Assembly: GCA_029210175.1 (NCBI GenBank)
Contig: JARGPL010000030.1
Span: 62,001-126,000, forward strand
Direction: 5' to 3'
DNA length: 64,000 nucleotides
Origin: Minwuia sp.
Lineage (GTDB): Bacteria > Pseudomonadota > Alphaproteobacteria > Minwuiales > Minwuiaceae
Shown: positions 7,500-61,541 of the stretch, in pieces
How positions within the stretch are numbered: position 1 is the stretch's first letter
Layout: every line of letters starts with the position of its first letter
The notes under the pieces: model-generated
Databases searched by the model: none
Told to the model about the DNA's origin: nothing
The model's input: the letters and a program-made list of their open reading frames with translations, nothing else
Position numbers and translations under genes: made by a program

Positions 7500-9329
7500 T
7501 TACCGCGCCGCGATTGCAGTCAGGAAAGCTGCGCCGAACTTTTCCAGCTTGCTTGCACCAACGCCATGTATCTCGCCGAACGTCTGCATGTCCGCCGGGC
7601 GGCGGCTGGCCAGTTCGATCAGCGTGGCATCATGGAAGATGACATAGGGCGGCACCCCCCGTGCACGCGCCAGGGAAAGGCGGACTTCCTTCAGCGCCTG
7701 CAGCAGTTCCTGACCCTCATCATCCAGTGCCGCCTCCGATGGCTTGCGGGACTTGCGGCTGCTCTTCTCGCCCTTGCCCGCCTTCAGGATGTCCGTGCTC
7801 AGCTGCAGGGTATCCGCACCCTTCAGCAGGGCCTGGCCGCGCGGGGTGACAGTCAGGCCACCAAAGCGGTCTGCATTGATTTCCAGGAACCCGGCCGCGA
7901 CAAGCTGGCGGATGATGGCACGCCACTCGGCCATTTTGCGGTCCGCGCCGATGCCGAAGGTGGAAAGCTGGTCATGGCCAAACTGCACGATCTTGGGTGT
8001 CGCCTTGCCCAGCAGGGAATCGGCGATATGCACCGCACCGAAACGCTCCCCCGTGCGCAGCACGGTGGACACGACCTTCTGACCCAGGTCCGTGCCGTCA
8101 ATCAGTGTCGGCGGATTCTGGCAGATGTCGCAGTTGCCGCACGGACCGGATTCCTCACCGAAATAGTGCAGCAGCATGACACGACGGCAGGACACGGCCT
8201 CGCAAAGCCCGACGAGTGAATCCAGCCGCCGCCGCTCGATGCGTTTCACGGCATCGTCGGCGTCACTGTCCTCGATGAACTGCCGACGCATCCGGATGTC
8301 GTTCAGACCGAAGAAAAGCTGTGCATCCGCCGGTTCACCGTCACGGCCCGCGCGCCCGATCTCCTGATAATAGGCTTCGATGGTGGCAGGCAGGTCGGCA
8401 TGCACGACGAAGCGCACGTCCGGCTTGTCGATGCCCATGCCAAAGGCAATCGTGGCAACGACGATGATCCCCGGCTCTGTCATGAAGCGATCCAGCCAGC
8501 GCGCCTTGGTCTCGGAATCCAGACCTGCATGATAAGCCAGCGCATTGTGCCCCGCGTCCCGCAACGCCTGGGCCATGTCCTCCGTCCCCTTGCGCGACAG
8601 GCAATAGACGATGCCGGACTGGCCCTGGCGTTCAGCGACAAAGGCCGCCACCTGTTTTTCCACCCCCGCTTTCACGTCGATGCCCAGGCGGATGTTGGGG
8701 CGGTCAAAGCCAGCCACATGCACTTCCGCCGCACCGCCGAACAGCCGATCGACGATGTCGGCGCGGGTTTCAGCGTCTGCCGTGGCGGTGAAGGCCCCGA
8801 TGGGAATATCGGGAAAGCGCACCCGCAATTGCGCCAGATCACGATACTCGGGGCGGAAGCTGTGGCCCCATTGCGATATGCAGTGGGATTCATCGACCAC
8901 GATCAGACCGATGGGCAGCGCCGCAAGCGCCTGCAGCATCCGGTCCGTCATCAGGCGCTCCGGCGACATGTAGAGCAGGCTGACATCGCCATCGCGCACC
9001 CGCAGCCAGGCATCCACGTTGTCCTGACGGCTGCGCCCGGAATTGATCGTCACCGCCGCCACCCCGGCAAGCTGCAACGCCGCCACCTGGTTCTCCATCA
9101 ACGCCACCAGTGGCGAGACAACCACCGTCAGACCGCTGCGAACCAGCGCCGGCACCTGAAAACAGAGCGACTTGCCCGCGCCCGTGGGCATGACTGCAAG
9201 CGTATGGCGACCGGCCAGCAGGTCATCCACCACCGCCTCCTGCCCCCGGCGGAAGCCGTCGAAACCGAATACGTCGCGCAGGATCTCGTGCTTGTTGTCG
9301 GCAGGTATCGGGTCGGCCTGAATGGTCAT
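7500..9329 (-). CDS. recQ: ATP-dependent DNA helicase RecQ
   Basis: A 609-residue 3'-5' superfamily 2 helicase that unwinds forked and gapped DNA in recombination and replication repair. In order: Walker A MPTGAGKS (47-54), motif II VVDESHCISQWGH (DESH instead of the common DEAH), motif III AFTATAD, motif V ATIAFGMGIDKPDVR, motif VI QEIGRAGRDG, a zinc-binding cysteine cluster (CEAVSC...CGNCDIC), a winged helix, and a C-terminal HRDC domain ending GVGASKLEKFG. The ATG at 9329 gives family length; upstream codons continue in frame but overlap the divergent gene. Expressed from the 168-bp divergent gap with the acyl-CoA dehydrogenase-fold gene. Confidence 0.95.
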   Translation of the reverse strand: MTIQADPIPADNKHEILRDVFGFDGFRRGQEAVVDDLLAGRHTLAVMPTGAGKSLCFQVPALVRSGLTVVVSPLVALMENQVAALQLAGVAAVTINSGRSRQDNVDAWLRVRDGDVSLLYMSPERLMTDRMLQALAALPIGLIVVDESHCISQWGHSFRPEYRDLAQLRVRFPDIPIGAFTATADAETRADIVDRLFGGAAEVHVAGFDRPNIRLGIDVKAGVEKQVAAFVAERQGQSGIVYCLSRKGTEDMAQALRDAGHNALAYHAGLDSETKARWLDRFMTEPGIIVVATIAFGMGIDKPDVRFVVHADLPATIEAYYQEIGRAGRDGEPADAQLFFGLNDIRMRRQFIEDSDADDAVKRIERRRLDSLVGLCEAVSCRRVMLLHYFGEESGPCGNCDICQNPPTLIDGTDLGQKVVSTVLRTGERFGAVHIADSLLGKATPKIVQFGHDQLSTFGIGADRKMAEWRAIIRQLVAAGFLEINADRFGGLTVTPRGQALLKGADTLQLSTDILKAGKGEKSSRKSRKPSEAALDDEGQELLQALKEVRLSLARARGVPPYVIFHDATLIELASRRPADMQTFGEIHGVGASKLEKFGAAFLTAIAAR

Positions 9330-9497
9330 GGGTTCTCGCTGAGGCGTCGGAGGCGATTCGGTGTCGGGCGCATTAGAGCAGGTCACCCATGCGGGGACAC
9401 GCCCTGTTGTTTCGCCCCCGGCAGGATGGTGTAGTTTGGGCGCGCAGGCTGGTGGTGCCAGCATGACAGCGAAACGCCGAAGGGGAGAACGACCAGC

Positions 9498-10727
9498 ATG
9501 CAATCACCATTGAGCACGGCGGAGCAGGACATTCGCGCACGGGCCCGCGACCTCGCGGAGCGGGTGATTGCCCCGAATGCTGCTGAGGTCGACAGGTCCG
9601 AACAATACCCCTGGGACAACGTGAAGGCGCTGAACGACGCCGGTTTCATGGGCATGACCGTGCCGAAGGACCTGGGCGGCCCCGGCCTGAGCTACATGGA
9701 TGCCACGCTGGTGATCGAAGAGATGGCTCGGGTCTGTGGCGTCACCGGGCGGATCGCTGTCGAAGCCAACATGGGGGCGATCTCTGCCATCCTGCAATAC
9801 GGCAGCGATGGACAACGCAAGATGGCCGCCGAGTTCGTGCTGTCCGGCGACAAGCCCGCAATCTGCATCACGGAACCGGATGCAGGCAGCGCGGCGACGG
9901 AGATGACCACAACCGCCGTGAAGCGGGGCGATACATACGTCCTGAACGGCAAGAAGCACTGGATCACCGGCGGTGGTGTGTCCCGTCTGCACCTGATCTT
10001 TGCCCGCGTCATGGATGAACAGGGCAACCGTCTCGGCATCGGGGGCTTCATCGCCGTCCGCGACGAAGACCCCGGCCTGCGCATCGGGGCGCGGGAACCG
10101 ACGATGGGCCTGCGCGGCATTCCGGAGGCGGAAGTCTATTTCGAGGATCTGGAACTGGGGCCGGAGCGGGTGCTGCTGCCGCCCTCCGGGTTCGGGCGTG
10201 GCTTTGCCGATCTGATGAATGCCTACAACAGCCAACGCGTCGGGGCGGGCACCGTGGCGCTGGGTCTGGCCGCAGGAGCCGCGGACCTTGCCCGCGACTA
10301 TGCCATCAACCGCCACCAGTTCGGACGCCCCATCGCGGAGTTCCAGGGCCTGCAGTGGATGCTGGCCGACATGGCGACCCAGGTTGATGCTGCGCGGCTG
10401 ATGATCCACAACGCGGCCCGTTCACGCGGCCCGGACAACAGCCCCTTCCCCGACCCCTATTCAGCGGCTCAGGCAAAGGTCTTCGCGTCGGAGATGGCGA
10501 TCAAGGTCACCAACGACGCCCTGCAGGTCTATGGCGCGAAAGGGTATTCCCGCAACACACCGATCGAGCGGATGCTGCGTGACGCGCGAATGTTCACCAT
10601 CGGCGGCGGCACCGCGCAGATCCTGCGCACCGTCATCGCATCGCGCCTACTGGACATGAAGTTCCCGCAGACCCGCGACGGCTATGTCGGGCGCAACAGC
10701 CCTGCCCCGCGCGAAGCAGCGGAGTAG
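9498..10727 (+). CDS. acd: Acyl-CoA dehydrogenase-fold protein, probable 3-sulfinopropanoyl-CoA desulfinase
   Basis: A 409-residue protein with the full acyl-CoA dehydrogenase fold: N-terminal helices, FAD-binding CITEPDAGSAA and HWITGGG, and the C-terminal helical domain. Both places where the catalytic glutamate of dehydrogenases can sit are substituted: the MCAD position reads TIGGGTAQIL (Gly for Glu) and the isovaleryl-CoA dehydrogenase position is Gln246 (AYNSQRVGAG). Gln at 246 plus Arg85 in VTGRIAVEAN are the hallmarks I recall for the desulfinase AcdDPN7 of Advenella (EC 3.13.1.4; Arg84/Gln246), which releases sulfite from 3-sulfinopropanoyl-CoA to give propanoyl-CoA. EQYPWDN and QTRDGY also match that family from memory. 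GGGGAGA precedes ATG 9498. An alternative is an ordinary dehydrogenase with altered base; the desulfinase call is likely, not proven. Confidence 0.7.
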   Translation: MQSPLSTAEQDIRARARDLAERVIAPNAAEVDRSEQYPWDNVKALNDAGFMGMTVPKDLGGPGLSYMDATLVIEEMARVCGVTGRIAVEANMGAISAILQYGSDGQRKMAAEFVLSGDKPAICITEPDAGSAATEMTTTAVKRGDTYVLNGKKHWITGGGVSRLHLIFARVMDEQGNRLGIGGFIAVRDEDPGLRIGAREPTMGLRGIPEAEVYFEDLELGPERVLLPPSGFGRGFADLMNAYNSQRVGAGTVALGLAAGAADLARDYAINRHQFGRPIAEFQGLQWMLADMATQVDAARLMIHNAARSRGPDNSPFPDPYSAAQAKVFASEMAIKVTNDALQVYGAKGYSRNTPIERMLRDARMFTIGGGTAQILRTVIASRLLDMKFPQTRDGYVGRNSPAPREAAE

Positions 10728-10974: not shown

Positions 10975-11844
10975 TCAATCCTCGAACCAGTCGAAGCGCG
11001 GGCCTGCAAGTTCCCGCAGCCGGGCGTAGTCATCGGCGAAGGTGGCCATCAGCTGCTCGCGGACATGTTCCGGGATGCGGTCGTCATACCCACCGACGTT
11101 CTGGGCGGCATAGTCGATGCCATGGGCGGCTTCCAGTTCAAGGAACCCGAAAACGCGTTCGGTCTCAGTTTCCGGATCAGTAAAAAATGCTTCTGACTTG
11201 ATAACACACACGTTTTCCTGGCCCAGAACCTTCTGCAACCGTTCGATCTGTGGCGCATAGAGGCTGCGGTCGACGTAGGAAAAATGCTGATGATTCCAGG
11301 ACTGGTAATCCGGATCGCTGCGGATCCTGGCCGCTTCCCCCGCCAGTCGCGTCGGCTCCTGCGCGATCGCATCCTCGAGGCTCAGGTCATCCTGACCCTT
11401 CTTGTTCTCATGCCAGTAGTGGGAGAAGGTTCGGTCGATGGGGTTGCGCAGCATGGCGATGACGCGAACACCCGGCAGGTCGGCCGCCATCCGCTCGATC
11501 GCCAGCGGGTGATACATGTAATAGGGACTGGCCTCGAACGTCAGGACGGCGGCACCGAGCTGTTTCTCGAGTTCCAGCTTCTCGGCGGCGCGGGCGAAGT
11601 GGCCCCGATACCAGTTCTCTCCCTTCGGATAGCCATAGTCGAAGTAATGCACCTCCTTCGAAGACGGAGCCAAAACCAGCGGGTGCTGCTGCAGGTAATG
11701 ATGCAGGGACGTGGTCCCGGCCTTCTGCGCGCCAACGATGATGAAATCCGGCAGCACCCGGTCATGCGCCGAAACAGCCACCTTGGCCCGGTGCCCGGCG
11801 TTGCGAATGATGTCCTTGGTTCGCTGCCACATTGCGTCTGCCAT
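10975..11844 (-). CDS. PAPS-dependent sulfotransferase domain protein
   Basis: About 289 residues with the sulfotransferase_1 fold. The 5'-phosphosulfate loop is VGAQKAGTTSL (Lys41, Gly43, Thr44, Thr45) and the 3'-phosphate-binding element is LRNPIDRTFSHY (Arg133, Ser141), the two hallmark PAPS contacts. ENKKGQDDLSLEDAI resembles the heparan/carbohydrate sulfotransferase group, so a glycan or lipid acceptor is possible but unknown. The start is uncertain: ATG at 11844 (MADAMW) follows AAGGG too closely, and GTG at 11877 or ATG at 11832 are alternatives. It is divergent from a decayed arylsulfatase gene, so the ability to add sulfate persists beside a lost ability to remove it. Confidence 0.85.
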   Translation of the reverse strand: MADAMWQRTKDIIRNAGHRAKVAVSAHDRVLPDFIIVGAQKAGTTSLHHYLQQHPLVLAPSSKEVHYFDYGYPKGENWYRGHFARAAEKLELEKQLGAAVLTFEASPYYMYHPLAIERMAADLPGVRVIAMLRNPIDRTFSHYWHENKKGQDDLSLEDAIAQEPTRLAGEAARIRSDPDYQSWNHQHFSYVDRSLYAPQIERLQKVLGQENVCVIKSEAFFTDPETETERVFGFLELEAAHGIDYAAQNVGGYDDRIPEHVREQLMATFADDYARLRELAGPRFDWFED

Positions 11845-11967
11845 CCCTTGCTGACTGCCCTTGGCGCGAACATGCACCAGCAGAAGGCGCACCGCAAACC
11901 GAAGACTGTCTTCCGCGCCACCGATTGAAGTCAGACTGTGCGGACGCAAGGTAGGGGGGAACAGGCA

Positions 11968-13598
11968 ATGAGCTACAAGCACCCGGCGGAGCCGAACTTT
12001 GGCGGCAGGATCGGACGCACCTTCGACGAGTCGGAAGCCTGGTGGCCCGAACCGAAACTGCCCAGGGGCAAACCGAACGTCCTGCTGATCGTGCTTGACG
12101 ACACCGGTTTCTCCCATTTCGGCTGCTATGGCTCGACCATCGAAACGCCGAACGTCGACCGTCTGGCGGCCAACGGCCTGCGCTATTCCAGTTTCCACAC
12201 CACGTCGCTCTGCTCCCCCACCCGGGCCTGTGTCATGACCGGGCGCAACCACCACACGGTTGGCATGCGGGCCATTTCCAACATGGACAGCGGTTTCCCA
12301 CACATGCGGGGTGCCATGCCCAGGTCCACGGCCACCATCGCCGAAGTGCTGCGCGACGAGGGCTATGCCACCTTCGCCACCGGCAAGTGGCACCTGGCCC
12401 CGATGTCACAGTGTTCCGCCACCCATTCCCCGCACCAGGCCCCGCACCAGGCCCCGCAGGACTATCTGGACAGGTACCGGGGCCGTTTCGACGATGGCTG
12501 GGATGCGGTGCGGGATGAATGATTTGCCCGCCAGAAGGCATCCGGCATCATCCCCGCCAACACGAAACTCGCCCCACGCAACTGCGGGGTTGAGCCCTGG
12601 AACGACCTGCCCCCCAACCACAAGGCCTTCGCCAACCGGCTGCAGGAAGCCTTCGCCGACATGCTGGACCATACCGACCACCAGATCGGACGCATGGTGG
12701 CATTCCTGGAGGAGATCGGACGGCTGGACGACACCATGGTGATCGTCATGTCGGGCAATGGTGCCAGCCAGGAGGGTCAGTCGACCGGTGTGTTCGATGA
12801 AATGCGCCATTTCAATCAGTTACACGAAGATGTTGATGTGGCAAGAGTTTCAAAGATGACCAACGGAAACTTCATAATCTGGATGAAAACTTTTCCGAAT
12901 GTGATGATCTGGCAGAGCAGGAACCTTCGAAGCTGAAGGAACTGACCGATCGCTGGTGGGTGGAGGCTGAGCGCCATGGCGTCCTGCCGCTGGATGACAG
13001 GGGTGCAGCAGTGCTGTTCCGTGCATCACGCCAACCCGGCACGCCGACCGCGCGGCGGCGCCATGTCTATCTGCCACCGATCAGCCATATCGTGTCGGAC
13101 GCCTGCCCCAGCATGGCACGGTCGTTCACCATCACCGCGACCATCGGTCATCCCGTAAGCGGCGGCAATGGCGCAATCCTGGCCCGGGGCACCATCAACA
13201 GCGGCGTCGTACTGTATGTGCAAGATGGCCGGCTGGTGTTCGTCTACAATTGTTTCCGCGAACATAGCCGGGTCGAGATGGCCACAACCCTCGGCCCCGG
13301 CGCGCATGAGATCGTGGTGCATGTGGAACGCAGCGCGGATCAGTCGGCCATCGCCAGCATGTCCGTTGATGGTGTGGATGCAGGCTCGGCCCATGTCCCG
13401 CTGCTGCTCAGGATCATTTCCTCGACCGGCATGGACTTCGGTCGCTCCAACGCGCCCGTCACCGACGACTATCAGGCGCCGTTTGTCTATCCCGGCACGA
13501 TCAGTCGGGTCGTCATCCAGCTGCCCGAGATCGCCAACGCCAGGGACAGGAAGGCTGATGTGGAGGTCGAGGCGCGCGCTGCAATGACCCGACAATAG
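11968..13598 (+). pseudogene. Decayed type I arylsulfatase
   Basis: The reading begins MSYKHPAEPNFGG and has the arylsulfatase start (VLLIVLDDTGFSHFGCYGS) and the formylglycine signature CSPTRACVMTGRNHH. Compared with the intact paralogue at 59178-61457, the region after GKWHLAPM has lost roughly 90 codons and jumps to HSPHQAP, with an in-frame 12-bp duplication (HQAPHQAP). At 12520-12522 a TGA replaces the Trp expected before FARQK. The same frame resumes until GVFDEMRHFN; then about 150 codons are missing and the C-terminal part (DENFSECDDLAE ... AAMTRQ) continues in another frame to 13598. GGGGGG-type RBS is still present at the start. No single intact product is possible. Confidence 0.88.
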
Positions 13599-17344: not shown

Positions 17345-18667
17345 ATGGCAGACCTGATCGATCTGAGTTCCCGTATCATCGACGAAGGCGCGGAACAGGC
17401 CCCCGGCCTGCTGAACCGCGTGACCCGGGAACTTTCGGAGGTGGCGGACGGCGTGGCCGTGGTCGAGGCATTCAGTCACGTCGTCAGCTTTCGCACCGAC
17501 GACGGGCTGGTGCTGTTCGACACCAGCCTGCAGGCGCACGCCCCCGCAATCATCAAGGCCCTGCGTGGCTGGTCGAAGGATCCGGTCAATTCCATCGCCT
17601 TCACCCATGGTCACGTGGACCATATCGGCGGCACCCAGGCGTTCCTGGATGAGGCATCAGACAGCGGCGACCCGCGCCCGCGCATCATCGGCCACGAAAA
17701 CGTCGGACCGCGCATAGACCGGTATATTCGTACCAACGGCTACAATGGCCACATCAATGCCCGCCAGTTCGGCGCCAGCCGCCCCGGTGGCGGCAAGGTG
17801 CCCGGGAAACAGGATGGGCCGCCGCCCTTTGGCCCGAAGACCTGGGTGAAGCCAGACACGACATTCGAAAGCCGGATGAACATCCGCGTTGGCGATGAGC
17901 ACATCGAGCTGTTTCACGACAAGGGCGAGACCGACGACCACCTCTGGGCCTGGTGGCCGGAGCGCAAGGCGATCTGTGCCGGTGACTTCATCATCTGGAT
18001 GTTCCCTAACGCCGGAAACCCGCAGAAGGTCCAGCGTTATCCGCTGGAATGGGCCAGCGCGCTGCGCCAGATGATGGCGTTGAAGCCCGAACTGATCCTG
18101 CCGGCCCATGGCCTGCCCTTTGCCGGACAGAAACGCATTGCGACCGTGCTGGATGACATGGCCTGTGCGCTTGAAGGACTGGTCGAGGACACCCTGTCGA
18201 TGATGAACGACGGTGCCCGCCTGAATGACATCATCCACAGCGTCCGCGTGCCAGACGACCTGTTGTCCAAACCCTACCTGCGCCCGTTCTACGACGAGCC
18301 GGAATTTGTCGTGCGCAACATCTGGCGGCTGTATGGTGGCTGGCACGACGGCAACCCCGCGAACCTGAAGCCCGCGCCGGATGCAGCACTGGCAGAGGAG
18401 CTGTCGCGGCTGGCCGGTGGCGCCCCTGCCCTGGCCTATCGTGCCCGCGAACTGGCGGAAGCCGGCGAACACCGCGTTGCCTGCCATCTGGTGGAGTTCG
18501 CCGCACAGGCGGCACCCGGCACCGCATCTGTCCATGCCGCCCGGGCTTTCGTCTATTCCCGGCGGCGCGAGAATGAGCTTTCCCTGATGTCGCGCGGGAT
18601 CTATGGCGCGGCGGTCCGCGAGTCCGAGGATCTGGGGCAGTTGCAATCGGGCGACGACAGGAACTGA
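17345..18667 (+). CDS. MBL-fold hydrolase with alkylsulfatase dimerisation domain
   Basis: A 440-residue metallo-beta-lactamase-fold protein. The metal motif THGHVDH (His88, His90, Asp92, His93) is followed by GETDDHLW, CAGDFIIW and LPAHGLPF, which supply further ligands. Residues from about 270 onward (LDDMACALEGLVEDTLSMMNDG, then YGGWHDGNPANLKP) match the alkylsulfatase dimerisation region of SdsA/BDS1-type secondary or linear alkylsulfatases. Unlike those about 650-residue enzymes it lacks an SCP2-like C-terminal domain and has no signal peptide, so it is probably cytoplasmic and may act on a different sulfate or thio-ester-like substrate. AGGAGA precedes ATG 17345. It is the second gene of the SDR operon, next to a crotonase. 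Confidence 0.85.
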   Translation: MADLIDLSSRIIDEGAEQAPGLLNRVTRELSEVADGVAVVEAFSHVVSFRTDDGLVLFDTSLQAHAPAIIKALRGWSKDPVNSIAFTHGHVDHIGGTQAFLDEASDSGDPRPRIIGHENVGPRIDRYIRTNGYNGHINARQFGASRPGGGKVPGKQDGPPPFGPKTWVKPDTTFESRMNIRVGDEHIELFHDKGETDDHLWAWWPERKAICAGDFIIWMFPNAGNPQKVQRYPLEWASALRQMMALKPELILPAHGLPFAGQKRIATVLDDMACALEGLVEDTLSMMNDGARLNDIIHSVRVPDDLLSKPYLRPFYDEPEFVVRNIWRLYGGWHDGNPANLKPAPDAALAEELSRLAGGAPALAYRARELAEAGEHRVACHLVEFAAQAAPGTASVHAARAFVYSRRRENELSLMSRGIYGAAVRESEDLGQLQSGDDRN

Positions 18668-33760: not shown

Positions 33761-34609
33761 TTACCGTTCCACCGGCGTATCGGACCGCCCGCCCCATTCG
33801 GTCCAGGACCCGTCATAGACGGCAACCTGGCGATGACCGACAAGGTGCAGGCCCAGCGCCAGCACACAGGCCGTAACGCCGGAACCACAGGTGGTCACGA
33901 CGGGTTTCCTCATGTCCAGACCGGATTCAGCCAGCTTGCCGCGCAAGGCATCAGCCTCAAGGAACGTGCCATCGCTGTTGAACAGGTCCTGATAGGGCGT
34001 GTTCAGACTGCCGGGAATGTGGCCGCCGCGCAGCCCCTTGCGGGGTTCCGGATCGGTGCCGGCAAAACGACCGGCGGAGCGGGCGTCGAGCACCTGTTCC
34101 CGACCGCGTTTCACGTTGGCCAGCATCTGGTCCACGTCGCGCACCAGGAAGCTGTTGACGCGCGCGGACAGATGCCGTTCGCGCGGAATATCCGGCAGGT
34201 CGGCCAGGGGACGGTTCTCCGCCTTCCATTTCGGCAGGCCACCATCCAGCACCGACACATCTTCATGACCAAAGGCACGGAACGTCCACCAGACGCGGGC
34301 AGCTGCCGTGCAGCCACCGCCATCATAGACGACGATGCGGACACCATCGCCCAGCCCCAGACGACGACAGCGCGAAGAGAACTTCTCCGGCGACGGCAGC
34401 ATGTGCGGCAGATCGCTGTCGGTGTCCGCGATCTCGTCGATGTCGAAGAACACGGCACCGGGAATGTGTCCTTCGGCAAATTCGGCCTTCGGATCCCGTC
34501 CCAGATGCGCCATGTACCAGGATGCATCGACCACACGAATGTCCGGCGCATCGATGTGCTGGGCCAGCCACTCCGTGGAGACCAGTGATTGCGGATTGGC
34601 ATAGCCCAT
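33761..34609 (-). CDS. sseA: 3-mercaptopyruvate sulfurtransferase
   Basis: A 282-residue protein with two rhodanese domains. The first is catalytically inactive (PGAVFFDIDEIADTDSDLPHMLP, then YDGGGCTAAARVWWTFRAFG), the second carries the active-site loop TTCGSGVTA, the form that separates mercaptopyruvate from thiosulfate sulfurtransferases. The enzyme moves sulfur from 3-mercaptopyruvate to thiol acceptors or cyanide. It precedes GNAT and ubiD by 5 bp and follows the AlaX gene by 29 bp, so is probably co-transcribed with them. Confidence 0.92.
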   Translation of the reverse strand: MGYANPQSLVSTEWLAQHIDAPDIRVVDASWYMAHLGRDPKAEFAEGHIPGAVFFDIDEIADTDSDLPHMLPSPEKFSSRCRRLGLGDGVRIVVYDGGGCTAAARVWWTFRAFGHEDVSVLDGGLPKWKAENRPLADLPDIPRERHLSARVNSFLVRDVDQMLANVKRGREQVLDARSAGRFAGTDPEPRKGLRGGHIPGSLNTPYQDLFNSDGTFLEADALRGKLAESGLDMRKPVVTTCGSGVTACVLALGLHLVGHRQVAVYDGSWTEWGGRSDTPVER

Positions 34610-34638
34610 TGCTTGGCCCCCTTCAGGGATGTTGCGGT

Positions 34639-35352
34639 TCAGGAAGCGAACTGAATGCTGACGCGCCGGTTCTGGCGGCCCTTCTTCTCGATCTTGCGGA
34701 CTTCAACCCTACCGATCTCGCCGGTGCGGGCCACATGCGTCCCGCCGCAGGGCTGCAGATCCATGCCATCGACTTCTATCAGGCGCACATGACCGGCGCC
34801 GGTCGGCGGCTTCACGGACATGGTCCTGACCAGATCGGGCTGTGCGGCCAGTTCATCATCCGTGATCCAGCGCATGCCGACCGGCGCATCGCGCGCGATC
34901 AGGTCGTTCAGGGTTGCGGCGATCTCTTCCTTGTCCAGGGTCGCCTCCGGAATGTCGAAATCCAGTCGGCTCTTCTCCGCCCCGACCTGCCCGCCGGTCA
35001 CGGGATGGCTCAGCACGGCGGACAGCAGGTGCAGGCACGTATGCATGCGCATGTGGGCATGCCGCCGGTCCCAGTCCAGTTCGATGGTCACTGCGGTCCC
35101 AACGGCTGGCAGGGTGGAGCCTTCGGCGGGCACGTGGACGATCTCGTCCGGGGTCGCACCCTTGACGGTGGTCGCGATGCTGACCGGCGGGTTGTCCGCC
35201 CACCGCATCGTACCGCTGTCACCCGGCTGCCCGCCCCCGTTGGGGTAGAACACGGTCCGGTCCAGCACGACGCCCCCCTTGTCCGTTACCGCCACGACGG
35301 TCGCATCACACGATTTCAGGTAGGCATCGTCGCGAAAAAGCGGCTCGGTCAT
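34639..35352 (-). CDS. alaX: Alanyl-tRNA editing protein AlaX
   Basis: A 237-residue stand-alone trans-editing protein that hydrolyses Ser- or Gly-tRNA(Ala). It has the N-terminal beta-barrel (AlaX-M type) and the editing domain with zinc ligands in MRMHTCLHLL (HxxxH) and CGGTHVA. GQVGAEKSRLDFDI is the typical substrate-loop segment. It is followed by sseA and preceded by cysK (38 bp). Confidence 0.92.
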   Translation of the reverse strand: MTEPLFRDDAYLKSCDATVVAVTDKGGVVLDRTVFYPNGGGQPGDSGTMRWADNPPVSIATTVKGATPDEIVHVPAEGSTLPAVGTAVTIELDWDRRHAHMRMHTCLHLLSAVLSHPVTGGQVGAEKSRLDFDIPEATLDKEEIAATLNDLIARDAPVGMRWITDDELAAQPDLVRTMSVKPPTGAGHVRLIEVDGMDLQPCGGTHVARTGEIGRVEVRKIEKKGRQNRRVSIQFAS

Positions 35353-35390
35353 CAGGGGCCTCCGGCAAGCGGGTGTATCAGCCCTCGGGA

Positions 35391-36392
35391 TTAGTCCAAC
35401 CAGGGCGGGGTGGGCAAGCCCTTCTCCGCCAGAAACGCCGGATTGTAGAGGCGGCTGAAGTACCGCTGCCCACCATCGCAGAGGATCGTCACGATGGTGT
35501 GCCCCGGTCCGAGCGCCTTGGCCAATCGTTTGGCTCCGGCGACATTCATGCCGCTGGACCCGCCGAGGATCAGCCCTTCGTGCTGCGCCAGATCGAATGT
35601 CGTGCGCACCATCTCCTCATCGGGAATGCGGAACGGGTGGTCGATCTTCAGCCCCTCCAGATTGGCGGTGATGCGCCCCTGCCCGATTCCTTCGGAGATC
35701 GAGCTGCCCTCCGACTTCAGTTCGCCATGGGCGTAGTAGCGCCAGAGTGCGGCACCATGCGGGTCGGCGAGACCGATCTGGATGTCCGGATTACGCTCCC
35801 GCAAGGCCGCCGATACCCCGGCCAGCGTGCCACCGCTGCCGACCGCGCAGATGAAGCCATCCACCTTGCCATTGGTCTGATCCCATATCTCCGGCCCCGT
35901 GGTCTCGAAATGACCCTGCCGGTTGGCAACATTGTCGAACTGGTTGGCCCAGATCGCGCCATTCGGATTGGTGGCCGCGATCTCTTCGGCGAGGCGACCG
36001 GAATAGCGCACGAAGTTGCCGGGATTGCTGTACGGCAGGGCCGGAACCTCCCGCAGGTCCGCACCACAGATCCGCAGCATTTCCTTCTTCTCTTCGCTTT
36101 GCGTTTCCGGGATCACGATGACACACTTGTAGCCGCGTGCCGCCGCGACGAGTGCCAGGCCGATCCCTGTATTGCCCGCCGTGCCTTCGACGATCACGCC
36201 GCCGGGCTTCAGCAGGCCACGCCGTTCCGCGTCATTGATGATTGCCAATGCCGCCCGGTCCTTGACCGAACCACCGGGGTTCAGGAACTCCGCCTTGCCC
36301 AGGATTTCACACCCGGTCTCCTCCGACGCCTGTTTCAGGCGGATGAGCGGTGTATTCCCGACCGAACCAATGAAACCCTGCTTAATATCCAT
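35391..36392 (-). CDS. cysK: Cysteine synthase A
   Basis: A 333-residue PLP beta-family enzyme that makes cysteine from O-acetylserine and sulfide. The N-terminus reads GFIGSVGNTPLIRL; the PLP lysine is in NPGGSVKDRAA; EGTAGNTGIGLALVAAARG binds the phosphate/substrate; and GSGGTLAGV contacts PLP. Starts at 36392 (MDIKQ), 36413 and 36449 are all in frame; 36392 gives the standard N-terminus but has only a weak GAG upstream. It is slightly longer than the E. coli enzyme. Together with sseA it makes a local cysteine-sulfur pair. Confidence 0.9.
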   Translation of the reverse strand: MDIKQGFIGSVGNTPLIRLKQASEETGCEILGKAEFLNPGGSVKDRAALAIINDAERRGLLKPGGVIVEGTAGNTGIGLALVAAARGYKCVIVIPETQSEEKKEMLRICGADLREVPALPYSNPGNFVRYSGRLAEEIAATNPNGAIWANQFDNVANRQGHFETTGPEIWDQTNGKVDGFICAVGSGGTLAGVSAALRERNPDIQIGLADPHGAALWRYYAHGELKSEGSSISEGIGQGRITANLEGLKIDHPFRIPDEEMVRTTFDLAQHEGLILGGSSGMNVAGAKRLAKALGPGHTIVTILCDGGQRYFSRLYNPAFLAEKGLPTPPWLD

Positions 36393-36532
36393 TTTTTTCT
36401 CGTACAATCTCATGACATGCGAAGTTTCATGGGATTTAGGACAGACCACAGTGAAGGTAAAGCCAGATCGCTGAACAACAGCATGACATCCCGCGGTACG
36501 GACGGCTAAAGGAGGGGTCAGATCGGGCGACG

Positions 36533-59177: not shown

Positions 59178-61457
59178 CTACTGTCTTGCCATCTCCGCAT
59201 TGCCGATCATTTCCCCATCCAGCGCGCCACGCGGATGCAGGTCGACACCAACGCGGGTCAGCGTGCCCGTGAAACCGTATGGCGCTTCATAGGTGCCAAC
59301 CGGGCTGCCCCGATCCCGTCCGATGTCCAGCCCCGACCAGGACACGAATGGCCCGAAGGTCAGATGCGTGCGCACCGATCCGGCTGCCTGACCGTCGATC
59401 TGCAGCGTATAGACGATTCCCGCACGCTGTCCGTCGGCGCTGGCCGGAACCTGTCTCGCCTGCAGGCCCAGCGACGCGGTGCCTGCCGGGATCGGTTGTT
59501 CGGACGTGACCTGTGTCAGTTCGCCGCCAATATTGGCCACATGCACCAGCCGACCCGTTGCGTCCATGTACAGCGCATAGCCCGATGTCGCATCGCCGTG
59601 GGCGATCAGAATTCCTTCCGGCATCGTCCCGCCATCAATCGCCACATGCGCGGTGATATCGTAGTTCCGCTCCCGAATGTCCGGCGCCACTTCGGTGGGG
59701 ATGTGGCCCATTCCCATGTGGAAATCGAAGCGCGTGCGCGCGCCCTGATGCCGCTCGGCGTTCTCCGCAAACCGCTCGGCGAACCGGTCATCCAGGGGCA
59801 GGACATTGTGGCCCGCGGCCTCTTCCCACCAAAGCGCGATCATGGCCTGCAACCTTTCCGGATGCCTTTCCGCCAGGTCAGTGCTCTCGGAGAAGTCCTT
59901 GTCCAGGTGATACAGCTCCCAGACGTCGTCATCGAACGGCTTGCCCCGCGGGTGATAGGCCACGGCCTTCCAGCCGTCGTGGACGATACCCCGATGACCG
60001 AACATCTCGAAATATTGCGCGCCTGTGCGCGATGGTGCCTCGGCATCGGTCAGGCTGGCGGCAAAGCTTTCCCCCTCGATGGGCATCTGCGGCACACCAT
60101 TGACGGTTTCGGGCGCCGGGATACCGACAATATCCAGCAGCGTTGGCACCAGATCGCTGACGTGGGCGAACTGATGGCGCAGCCCCGGCTCGGTCCCCAA
60201 TCCCTTCGGCCATGAAATGACCAGGGGGTCGCGAATTCCGCCGCCGTGGGTGTTCTGCTTGTAGCGCTTCAGCGGCGTGTTAGCTGCCATCGCCCAGCCA
60301 AAGGGGAAGTTGGTGTGGGTATCAGGGCCACCGATGTCGTCGATCCGCGCGATCTTCTCCGGCACCGATTCCTTGCGCCCGTTGAATGGTCCCATGGCAT
60401 TGACGAAGCCGAACGGGCCGCCTTCCTGGCTGGCGCCATTGTCGGACATGACGATGATGATCGTGTCATCACGCACACCCGCCTGATCCAGAAAGCCGAT
60501 CAGCCGCGCCAGATGCTGATCCGCATGGTCGAGCATCGCCGCGTAGGCTGATTGCAGGCGCGTGAACAGACGCTGCTCATCGGGGCCGAATTCGGACCAG
60601 GGCCGGACATTGTCATTGATCGGTGGCATGGCGGTGTCGGGCGGAACAAGCCCCAGTTCCTTCTGCCGCGACAGGCGCCGATCCCGTTCCACCTCCCAAC
60701 CGTCGGCGAACATGGCGTCATAGCTCCTGATCAGATCAAACGGGGCCTGATGCGGGGCATGGCATGCGCCAAAGGAGAGCAGCGTCATCCATGGCACATC
60801 CGGCTGCTCCGCGATGTGGTTGGACAGGAACCTGATCCCCTCATCCACCAGATCACTGGTCAGATGATAGCCGTCGGCGTAGCTGCCCGGCGGATCGATG
60901 TGGGAATTGTCGCGCACCAGTTCAGGCGAGAACTGATCGGTCTCCGCATCCATGAAGCCATAGAAGCGATCGAAGCCGCGCCCCAGCGGCCAGCCGTCAA
61001 AGGGTCCCGCCGAACCGGTTTCCGTCAGTGGCGTCACATGCCACTTGCCCAGCATGTAATTGCGATAGCCGTGTGGTCGCAGCATTTCCGCGATGGTGCC
61101 CGCATGCCTGCTGATCTTGCCGGTATAACCCGGATAGCCGCTGTCAAAGTTTGCCAGGCTGCCGACACCGACCGAATGATGGTTTCGCCCGGTCAGCAGC
61201 GCCGCGCGGGTGGTCGAGCACATGGCCGTGGTGTGAAAGCCGGAATAGCGCAGCCCACGCGCCGCCAGCGCGTCAATTGTCGGCGTCCGGATGGTCGAGC
61301 CATAGCAGCCGAAGTCAGAGAACCCGACGTCGTCGAACAGCACCATCAGGATGTTCGGTGCGCCCTTTGGCGGTGACGGTCTTTCCGGCCACCAGGGCTG
61401 TGAATCGGCAATCGTGCGCCCGATCTTCCCCGGAAAGCCACGTTGCTGCTCGGCCAT
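59178..61457 (-). CDS. Type I arylsulfatase
   Basis: A 759-residue formylglycine sulfatase. Metal and active-site elements: LMVLFDDVGFSDFGCYGS, the modification site CSTTRAALLTGRNHHSVG (note Thr where Pro/Ala is usual in CxPxR), GKWHVTP, MSDNGASQEG with the Asp-Asn metal ligands and the histidine/lysine in KQNTHGG. A long linker leads to a C-terminal beta-rich domain (about 590-759). No signal peptide is visible (MAEQQRGFPGKIG), so it may act in the cytoplasm. GGGGAGGGG is upstream. It is the intact paralogue of the decayed gene at 11968. Divergent from a CaiB/BaiF gene across a 125-bp gap with a candidate operator. Confidence 0.9.
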   Translation of the reverse strand: MAEQQRGFPGKIGRTIADSQPWWPERPSPPKGAPNILMVLFDDVGFSDFGCYGSTIRTPTIDALAARGLRYSGFHTTAMCSTTRAALLTGRNHHSVGVGSLANFDSGYPGYTGKISRHAGTIAEMLRPHGYRNYMLGKWHVTPLTETGSAGPFDGWPLGRGFDRFYGFMDAETDQFSPELVRDNSHIDPPGSYADGYHLTSDLVDEGIRFLSNHIAEQPDVPWMTLLSFGACHAPHQAPFDLIRSYDAMFADGWEVERDRRLSRQKELGLVPPDTAMPPINDNVRPWSEFGPDEQRLFTRLQSAYAAMLDHADQHLARLIGFLDQAGVRDDTIIIVMSDNGASQEGGPFGFVNAMGPFNGRKESVPEKIARIDDIGGPDTHTNFPFGWAMAANTPLKRYKQNTHGGGIRDPLVISWPKGLGTEPGLRHQFAHVSDLVPTLLDIVGIPAPETVNGVPQMPIEGESFAASLTDAEAPSRTGAQYFEMFGHRGIVHDGWKAVAYHPRGKPFDDDVWELYHLDKDFSESTDLAERHPERLQAMIALWWEEAAGHNVLPLDDRFAERFAENAERHQGARTRFDFHMGMGHIPTEVAPDIRERNYDITAHVAIDGGTMPEGILIAHGDATSGYALYMDATGRLVHVANIGGELTQVTSEQPIPAGTASLGLQARQVPASADGQRAGIVYTLQIDGQAAGSVRTHLTFGPFVSWSGLDIGRDRGSPVGTYEAPYGFTGTLTRVGVDLHPRGALDGEMIGNAEMARQ

Positions 61458-61541
61458 GTTGCTGCCCCTCCCCTGAAACTTTTGACGGGACATTAGCCTG
61501 CTTGTTCCGCCGGGGCGAGTGATGCTCCGTCCTGCTCGCAA

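Follow-up and report, generated by a model that had tools for sequence, protein, structure and literature searches.

The window is a stretch of 64,000 nucleotides from an assembly of Minwuia sp.; this genus belongs to the alphaproteobacterial order Minwuiales. An open reading frame at 9498-10727 (forward strand) runs unbroken from the ATG at 9498 to the stop at 10727, and encodes 409 amino acids with an acyl-CoA dehydrogenase fold. The complementary frame contains four stops and also a 301-aa open stretch (9504-10409); the window has 63% G+C, and long antisense frames are common there. A ribosome-binding-site-like sequence, AAGGGGAG (9480-9487, forward strand; found by eye), lies 10 bases 5' of the ATG. 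Upstream is a divergent helicase gene, taken as RecQ by eye, whose likely ATG (also set by eye) ends at 9329. The gap between the two genes (9330-9497, 168 bases) leaves space for a promoter of the ORF's own. On the other side, a convergent gene with sulfotransferase domains (PF13469, PF00685) adjoins the ORF at 10975-12393 (reverse strand); its true start is probably further in, as judged by eye. When the reading frames of window positions 1-22000 were inspected by eye, neither a dioxygenase nor a CoA-transferase gene was seen close to the ORF. The gene occurs in two contexts in Minwuia: next to the helicase gene in the window and in loci L017-L019, and next to an agmatinase-like gene in genomes G003 and G007 (by eye). 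The homologue of the agmatinase-like gene in the window lies 5.5 kb from the ORF.

Other sulfur genes were also seen in the window. A decayed arylsulfatase gene (11938-13598, forward strand) consists of three blocks, which correspond to residues 21-177, 261-403 and 533-787 of its paralogue at 59178-61541 (reverse strand); two stretches are missing and the frame changes. A metallo-beta-lactamase-fold protein with an alkylsulfatase dimerisation domain (PF14863) is encoded at 17345-18667 (forward strand). At 33761-36449 (reverse strand), the gene of a protein with two rhodanese stretches (33761-34609) lies close to that of cysteine synthase A (35391-36449; NF007989, 564 against a cut-off of 387).

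The protein encoded at 9498-10727 passes the cut-off of NF042439, the NCBIfam equivalog for 3-sulfinopropanoyl-CoA (3SP-CoA) desulfinase, with 670.9 bits against 600, and the whole model is covered; the second-best family reaches 308 bits. A phmmer search of the PDB gave 5af7, the desulfinase AcdDPN7 of Advenella mimigardefordensis DPN7, as the best match (E 1e-148), and the next PDB sequence followed at 2.6e-75. The protein shares 60% identity with AcdDPN7 (387 columns) and 39% with the dehydrogenases 3pfd and 5ol2, in an alignment which also holds six wrongly stranded rows; the identities in the Foldseek alignments are 59% to 5ahs/5af7 and 37-38% to 3pfd and 5ol2. The AlphaFold model (40 window and locus sequences as input) has a pLDDT of 89.9. 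Its top Foldseek matches are 5ahs and 5af7, both structures of AcdDPN7 (TM 0.91-0.96, E 1.2e-44 to 9.7e-44), and the next dehydrogenase follows at 6.7e-31. The Pfam domains and the fold are of the acyl-CoA dehydrogenase type.

A quick maximum-likelihood tree was reconstructed from 104 rows. A single clade (SH-aLRT 100) holds all 95 family members, AcdDPN7 among them, and a long stem separates it from nine dehydrogenases. Four Betaproteobacterial rows cluster on a clade of their own (SH-aLRT 100). When the tree is rooted with these dehydrogenases, AcdDPN7 branches within the family; the root within the family is unsure, because the outgroup branches are long. The profile, the PDB match, the tree and the fold are not fully independent lines of evidence, since the same sequence underlies all of them. 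The sequence-only reading had proposed a probable 3-sulfinopropanoyl-CoA desulfinase, and this proposal is supported by the NF042439 score, by 5af7/5ahs as the best relative in both sequence and fold, and by the common clade with AcdDPN7. A position among the normal dehydrogenases, which would have spoken against it, was not what the tree gave.

The active-site residues were compared in the same 95 family rows and in the nine dehydrogenases, namely seven others of the same genome (7 of its 30 further matches) and two from the PDB. Rows L041, L043, L068, L073 and L084 were trimmed at a stop near their end for the residue counts and for the tree. Arg85, the counterpart of Arg84 in AcdDPN7, is encoded at 9750-9752; Gln246, at the catalytic-Glu position of the isovaleryl-CoA dehydrogenase type, at 10233-10235; and Gly370, at the catalytic-Glu position of the MCAD/SCAD type, at 10605-10607 (all forward strand). 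Each of the three is conserved in 95/95 family rows, and so is Tyr243. In the dehydrogenases, position 85 is T, A, L, G, L, L, S, L and V, with Arg in 0/9. Position 246 is E in two of the same-genome enzymes (L004 and L006); position 370 is E in seven of the nine and A in the remaining two. The pairs at 246/370 are G/E, G/E, E/A, G/E, E/A, G/E, A/E, T/E and G/E, so that each dehydrogenase has exactly one Glu. The combination of Arg85, Gln246 and Gly370 was thus found in all 95 family rows and in none of the nine dehydrogenases. Altogether 22 positions, including these three and Tyr243, are invariant in the 95 rows and present in at most one of the nine. Such conservation is partly to be expected, because the rows were chosen for resembling the window protein or the family model. 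Judging from the aligned sequences, the Arg85/Gln246/Gly370 pattern is not due to chance.

The residues lie in the motifs VTGRIAVEA (position 82), AYNSQRVGAG (242) and TIGGGTAQIL (367, with Gly369-371), and the alignment puts the dehydrogenase Glu column at Gly370 of the last of these. The segments EQYPWDN (35) and QTRDGY (391) are common to the window protein and AcdDPN7. These motifs and segments had been named in the sequence-only reading, as had the loss of both catalytic-Glu sites and the AcdDPN7 counterparts Gln246 and Arg84, and the alignment with AcdDPN7 (about 60% identity) agrees with it on these two counterparts and on both segments. The two proteins are alike in fold, in Gln246, in Arg84/85 and in the Gly at the MCAD Glu site; no difference was found between the window protein and the NF042439 desulfinases. 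Arg84 of AcdDPN7 (Arg85 here) is presumably the holder of the substrate's sulfinate end, and we take Arg84 and Gln246 to have specific roles in AcdDPN7. The Gln and Gly at the two Glu sites, together with the Arg84 equivalent, are taken here as defining features of the desulfinase family. The isovaleryl-CoA and the medium- and short-chain acyl-CoA dehydrogenases share the superfamily and the fold; the window protein differs from them in having neither catalytic Glu. Two alternative catalytic bases, nearly 120 residues apart, are described in a section of PMC12369846: E286 in IVD and E401 in ACADM. Positions 246 and 370 probably correspond to these sites, as read from the motifs rather than from aligned human sequences. 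A passage of PMC8360864 describes a sulfinopropionyl-CoA desulfinase branch without the Glu of the YEG motif (AGG), in which the sulfino group is eliminated as sulfite; the window protein has GGG at this motif, whereas that branch has AGG.

Taken as a whole, the best explanation is that the ORF encodes a 3SP-CoA desulfinase, with a probability of about 0.9. This assignment is based on the sequence, the predicted fold, the residues and the family membership, and the reaction would be that of the characterised relatives. The fold stays that of an acyl-CoA dehydrogenase, and the enzyme would cleave the C-S bond of 3SP-CoA to give sulfite and propionyl-CoA in a reaction that is redox-neutral overall. 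Since neither catalytic Glu is present, it should not start an alpha,beta-dehydrogenation in the usual way. Arg85 and Gln246 might hold and polarise the sulfinate group. The window enzyme is an ordinary member of an already catalogued family. Six plasmid records contain the desulfinase at E 1e-100; five are annotated, all five as 3-sulfinopropanoyl-CoA desulfinase, and the sixth has no annotation. The protein is therefore not new.

In Advenella and Variovorax, Mdo turns 3-mercaptopropionate into 3-sulfinopropionate, SucCD or the CoA-transferase Act activates the product, and Acd releases sulfite and propionyl-CoA, according to sections of PMC5373536, PMC6370202 and PMC8102459. The Advenella acd gene adjoins mdo, a family III acyl-CoA transferase gene and a LysR gene, as given in a passage of PMC5373536. 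In contrast, the window gene stands alone between the divergent helicase gene (by eye) and the convergent sulfotransferase gene. In Diaphorobacter, the CoA-transferase, desulfinase and cysteine-dioxygenase genes lie in a row; in Paraburkholderia, the CoA-transferase gene adjoins the desulfinase gene and the dioxygenase gene is about 6 kb off. The window gene has no such neighbours, which weakens the claim for an Advenella-type pathway but not the claim for the enzyme. In Minwuia, 3SP might come from oxidation of a C3 mercapto-acid, for which 3-mercaptopropionate would be the best candidate, and might then be activated by a CoA-transferase or a succinyl-CoA synthetase encoded elsewhere in the genome. 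3-Mercaptopropionate is described as a marine thiol in a part of PMC12947264, so the substrate of the desulfinase need not be new.

Genes for these supply steps were searched in the same genome. The domain PF05995 had no match there (21/385 genomes overall), which was at first taken as absence of a thiol dioxygenase; this was withdrawn when a homologue was found with a protein query. PF05995 also misses, with no match at 1e-4, the annotated cysteine dioxygenase near the Paraburkholderia desulfinase. With the Diaphorobacter dioxygenase as query, one homologue was found in the genome (L138:7033-7632, 28% identity, E 5.8e-9), and none below 1e-40 that would count as a close homologue of this desulfinase-linked enzyme. 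Its best PDB match is the mercaptosuccinate dioxygenase 8vni (4.6e-34), and the 3-mercaptopropionate dioxygenase entries follow at 1e-6 to 3e-4; the Diaphorobacter dioxygenase itself matches the latter entries at 2e-62. The homologue is not linked to the desulfinase gene (contig 40 and contig 4, respectively). It lies in a row (L138:5843-9254) between the genes of a SufS-like PLP enzyme and of a protein with three rhodanese stretches. Seven CoA-transferases of the genome match the Diaphorobacter type at 1e-60; the best class III matches have 41-42% identity, with none above 42%, and none of the seven is encoded on the desulfinase contig.

The desulfinase is a single copy above the NF042439 cut-off in this genome, and the 30 other matches have at most 285 bits. 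It was found in 8/9 genomes of Minwuia's family, own genome included, and in 50 of the 385 genomes of a class-wide draw of Alphaproteobacteria (13%). Among the matches listed, the closest ones with a name come from Minwuia records and 'Kordiimonadales IMCC3096' (89-90% identity); an alphaproteobacterial MAG has 95%. In a scan of named genomes, the labels of the best 80 loci (65-95% identity) include Alpha- and Gammaproteobacteria, Acidimicrobiia and Candidatus Binatia. All 7 genomes of the genus, own genome included, have a match to the Diaphorobacter dioxygenase. In the class-wide draw, 86/385 genomes have one at 1e-5: 38/50 with the desulfinase (expected 11.2, Fisher p 1.5e-18) against 48/335 without it. 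A close dioxygenase (E below 1e-40) was present in 16/385 genomes and in 5/50 with the desulfinase (expected 2.1, p 0.04). Both tests ignore kinship and genome size. Fourteen of the dioxygenase matches sit in open frames of 748-864 codons, and are possibly fusions.

DMSP was also considered as a sulfinate source. The genome encodes a DmdA-like GcvT-family protein (L149:1414-2532, contig C41), which scores 391.2 (protein search) or 392 (genome search) against the NF009133 cut-off of 410; in the PDB it matches DmdA 3tfh best (E 4.4e-83). By eye, its gene is transcribed away from genes that resemble those of carnitine dehydrogenase and BKACE. These neighbours suggest carnitine degradation, and the protein is possibly a betaine-type demethylase. 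Of 45 genomes with the desulfinase, 5 have DmdA above the cut-off, as do 4 of 35 without it; when the cut-off is ignored and E 1e-80 is used instead, the numbers are 10/45 and 5/35. The 45 are those of the 50 desulfinase genomes other than G004, G005, G192, G285 and G286, and the controls are 35 of the 335 others, of 3.5 Mb or more, which are not a random sample because nearly all were listed for a dioxygenase or ThDP-enzyme match. Since the presence of DmdA does not clearly follow that of the desulfinase, DMSP is unsupported as a general source of the sulfinate.

The neighbourhoods in other lineages were examined in the best 80 loci, of which 69 have 1.5 kb or more of downstream flank and 73 of upstream flank. 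An acetolactate-synthase-like ThDP gene lies directly downstream on the same strand in 17 loci, a TPR-protein gene immediately upstream in the same orientation in 13, and a divergent LysR gene upstream in 9; P450, glutamine-synthetase-like (GS-like), aldehyde dehydrogenase and class III CoA-transferase genes occur in the fetched flanks of 17, 11, 10 and 9 loci, respectively, mainly in Acidimicrobiia. In these counts related genomes are counted separately, and genes may be missed or misplaced because gene calling followed a crude longest-ORF rule. The ThDP enzyme is linked to the desulfinase at L028:9251-10870 and at 17 further loci, which include several alphaproteobacterial and some other proteobacterial records. 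In the PDB the enzyme matches an acetolactate synthase best, and no curated cut-off was reached among the best 25 of 52 families (top score 361.6 against 509). It was found in 24/385 genomes of the class. Fourteen of these also encode the desulfinase (expected 3.1, p 5e-8; kinship and genome size ignored), and in 8 of the 14 the coordinates place the ThDP gene within 2 kb of the desulfinase gene. The own genome has no match to the ThDP enzyme at E 1e-100.

On plasmid pML2037 of Mesorhizobium loti (L106:6760-17164), the desulfinase gene clusters with CoA-transferase, putative sulfate exporter, gamma-glutamyl-GABA hydrolase family, TPR, glutamine-synthetase family, permease, 2Fe-2S and P450 genes, and acyl-CoA carboxylase genes are nearby. 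The cluster resembles an amine pathway with desulfination as its last step. The TPR partner protein is presumably TTC38-like. It has a homologue in the own genome (39% identity, G000:C3:9618-10979); no GS-like or P450 genes were seen by eye around it, and the homologue therefore does not show an amine route. Neither ThDP nor GS-like/P450 clusters were found in the Minwuia loci L016-L019, of which L016 is only 4.2 kb long. It is possible that the neighbourhoods of the other lineages represent 2-oxo-acid routes or amine routes that lead to 3SP-CoA.

Two other functions might be considered for the window protein. It has the fold and the Pfam domains of acyl-CoA dehydrogenases, and it could be a normal member of that group with its catalytic base elsewhere. 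However, neither Glu site is occupied, the seven aligned dehydrogenases of the same genome keep exactly one Glu each, and the scores and the tree put the protein with the desulfinases, so that this explanation is extremely improbable. Alternatively, it might be a desulfinase acting mainly on other sulfinate-CoA substrates (longer, branched or substituted), with the non-Betaproteobacterial clade fed by different pathways. The neighbourhoods differ greatly across the family, and hence the substrates could differ: this is suggested by the downstream ThDP genes, by the mainly Acidimicrobial GS-like/P450/aldehyde dehydrogenase/CoA-transferase pattern, by the GS-like, P450 and hydrolase genes in Mesorhizobium, and by the separate, fully supported Betaproteobacterial clade. 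However, Arg85, Tyr243, Gln246 and Gly370 are invariant in every family row, that of AcdDPN7 included; AcdDPN7 sits inside the family under the root used, and NF042439 spans Betaproteobacteria and others. A preference for other sulfinates is quite unlikely.

With 3SP-CoA desulfinase as the function, a further question is how the sulfinate is supplied. The mercaptosuccinate-dioxygenase-like protein at L138:7033-7632 might make it from 3-mercaptopropionate or another mercapto-acid, with the SufS-like and rhodanese neighbours handling sulfane sulfur. This explanation is compatible with the desulfinase assignment. The 8vni match, the position of the gene between the SufS-like and three-rhodanese genes, the presence of a dioxygenase match in all genomes of the genus and its enrichment in desulfinase genomes argue for it; the co-occurrence is uncorrected for kinship and genome size, and the two genes are unlinked. 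Sulfinosuccinate is reported to decompose spontaneously, in a passage of PMC5373536, so that a mercaptosuccinate-dioxygenase-like operon would not necessarily need a desulfinase. Supply by this protein is somewhat unlikely on balance.

The 3SP-CoA desulfinase is of interest for its distribution and not for the enzyme itself, since 50/385 genomes carry it and only 5 of these 50 have a close desulfinase-linked dioxygenase. Tentatively, and with less than even odds, the desulfinase of Acidimicrobiia and of marine Alphaproteobacteria, Minwuia among them, might end at least one undescribed organosulfur route which does not start with the known 3-mercaptopropionate dioxygenase. Such a route could be, for instance, a 2-oxo-acid route via the adjacent acetolactate-synthase-like ThDP enzyme, a route from a gamma-glutamylated C3 sulfur-amine via the GS-like, P450, aldehyde dehydrogenase and CoA-transferase enzymes, or, in Minwuia, a mercaptosuccinate-dioxygenase-like/rhodanese route. 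The recurrent neighbour genes are concrete candidates to test. With many carriers and few close dioxygenases, the release of sulfite from C3 sulfinates may be a common step of marine organosulfur metabolism.
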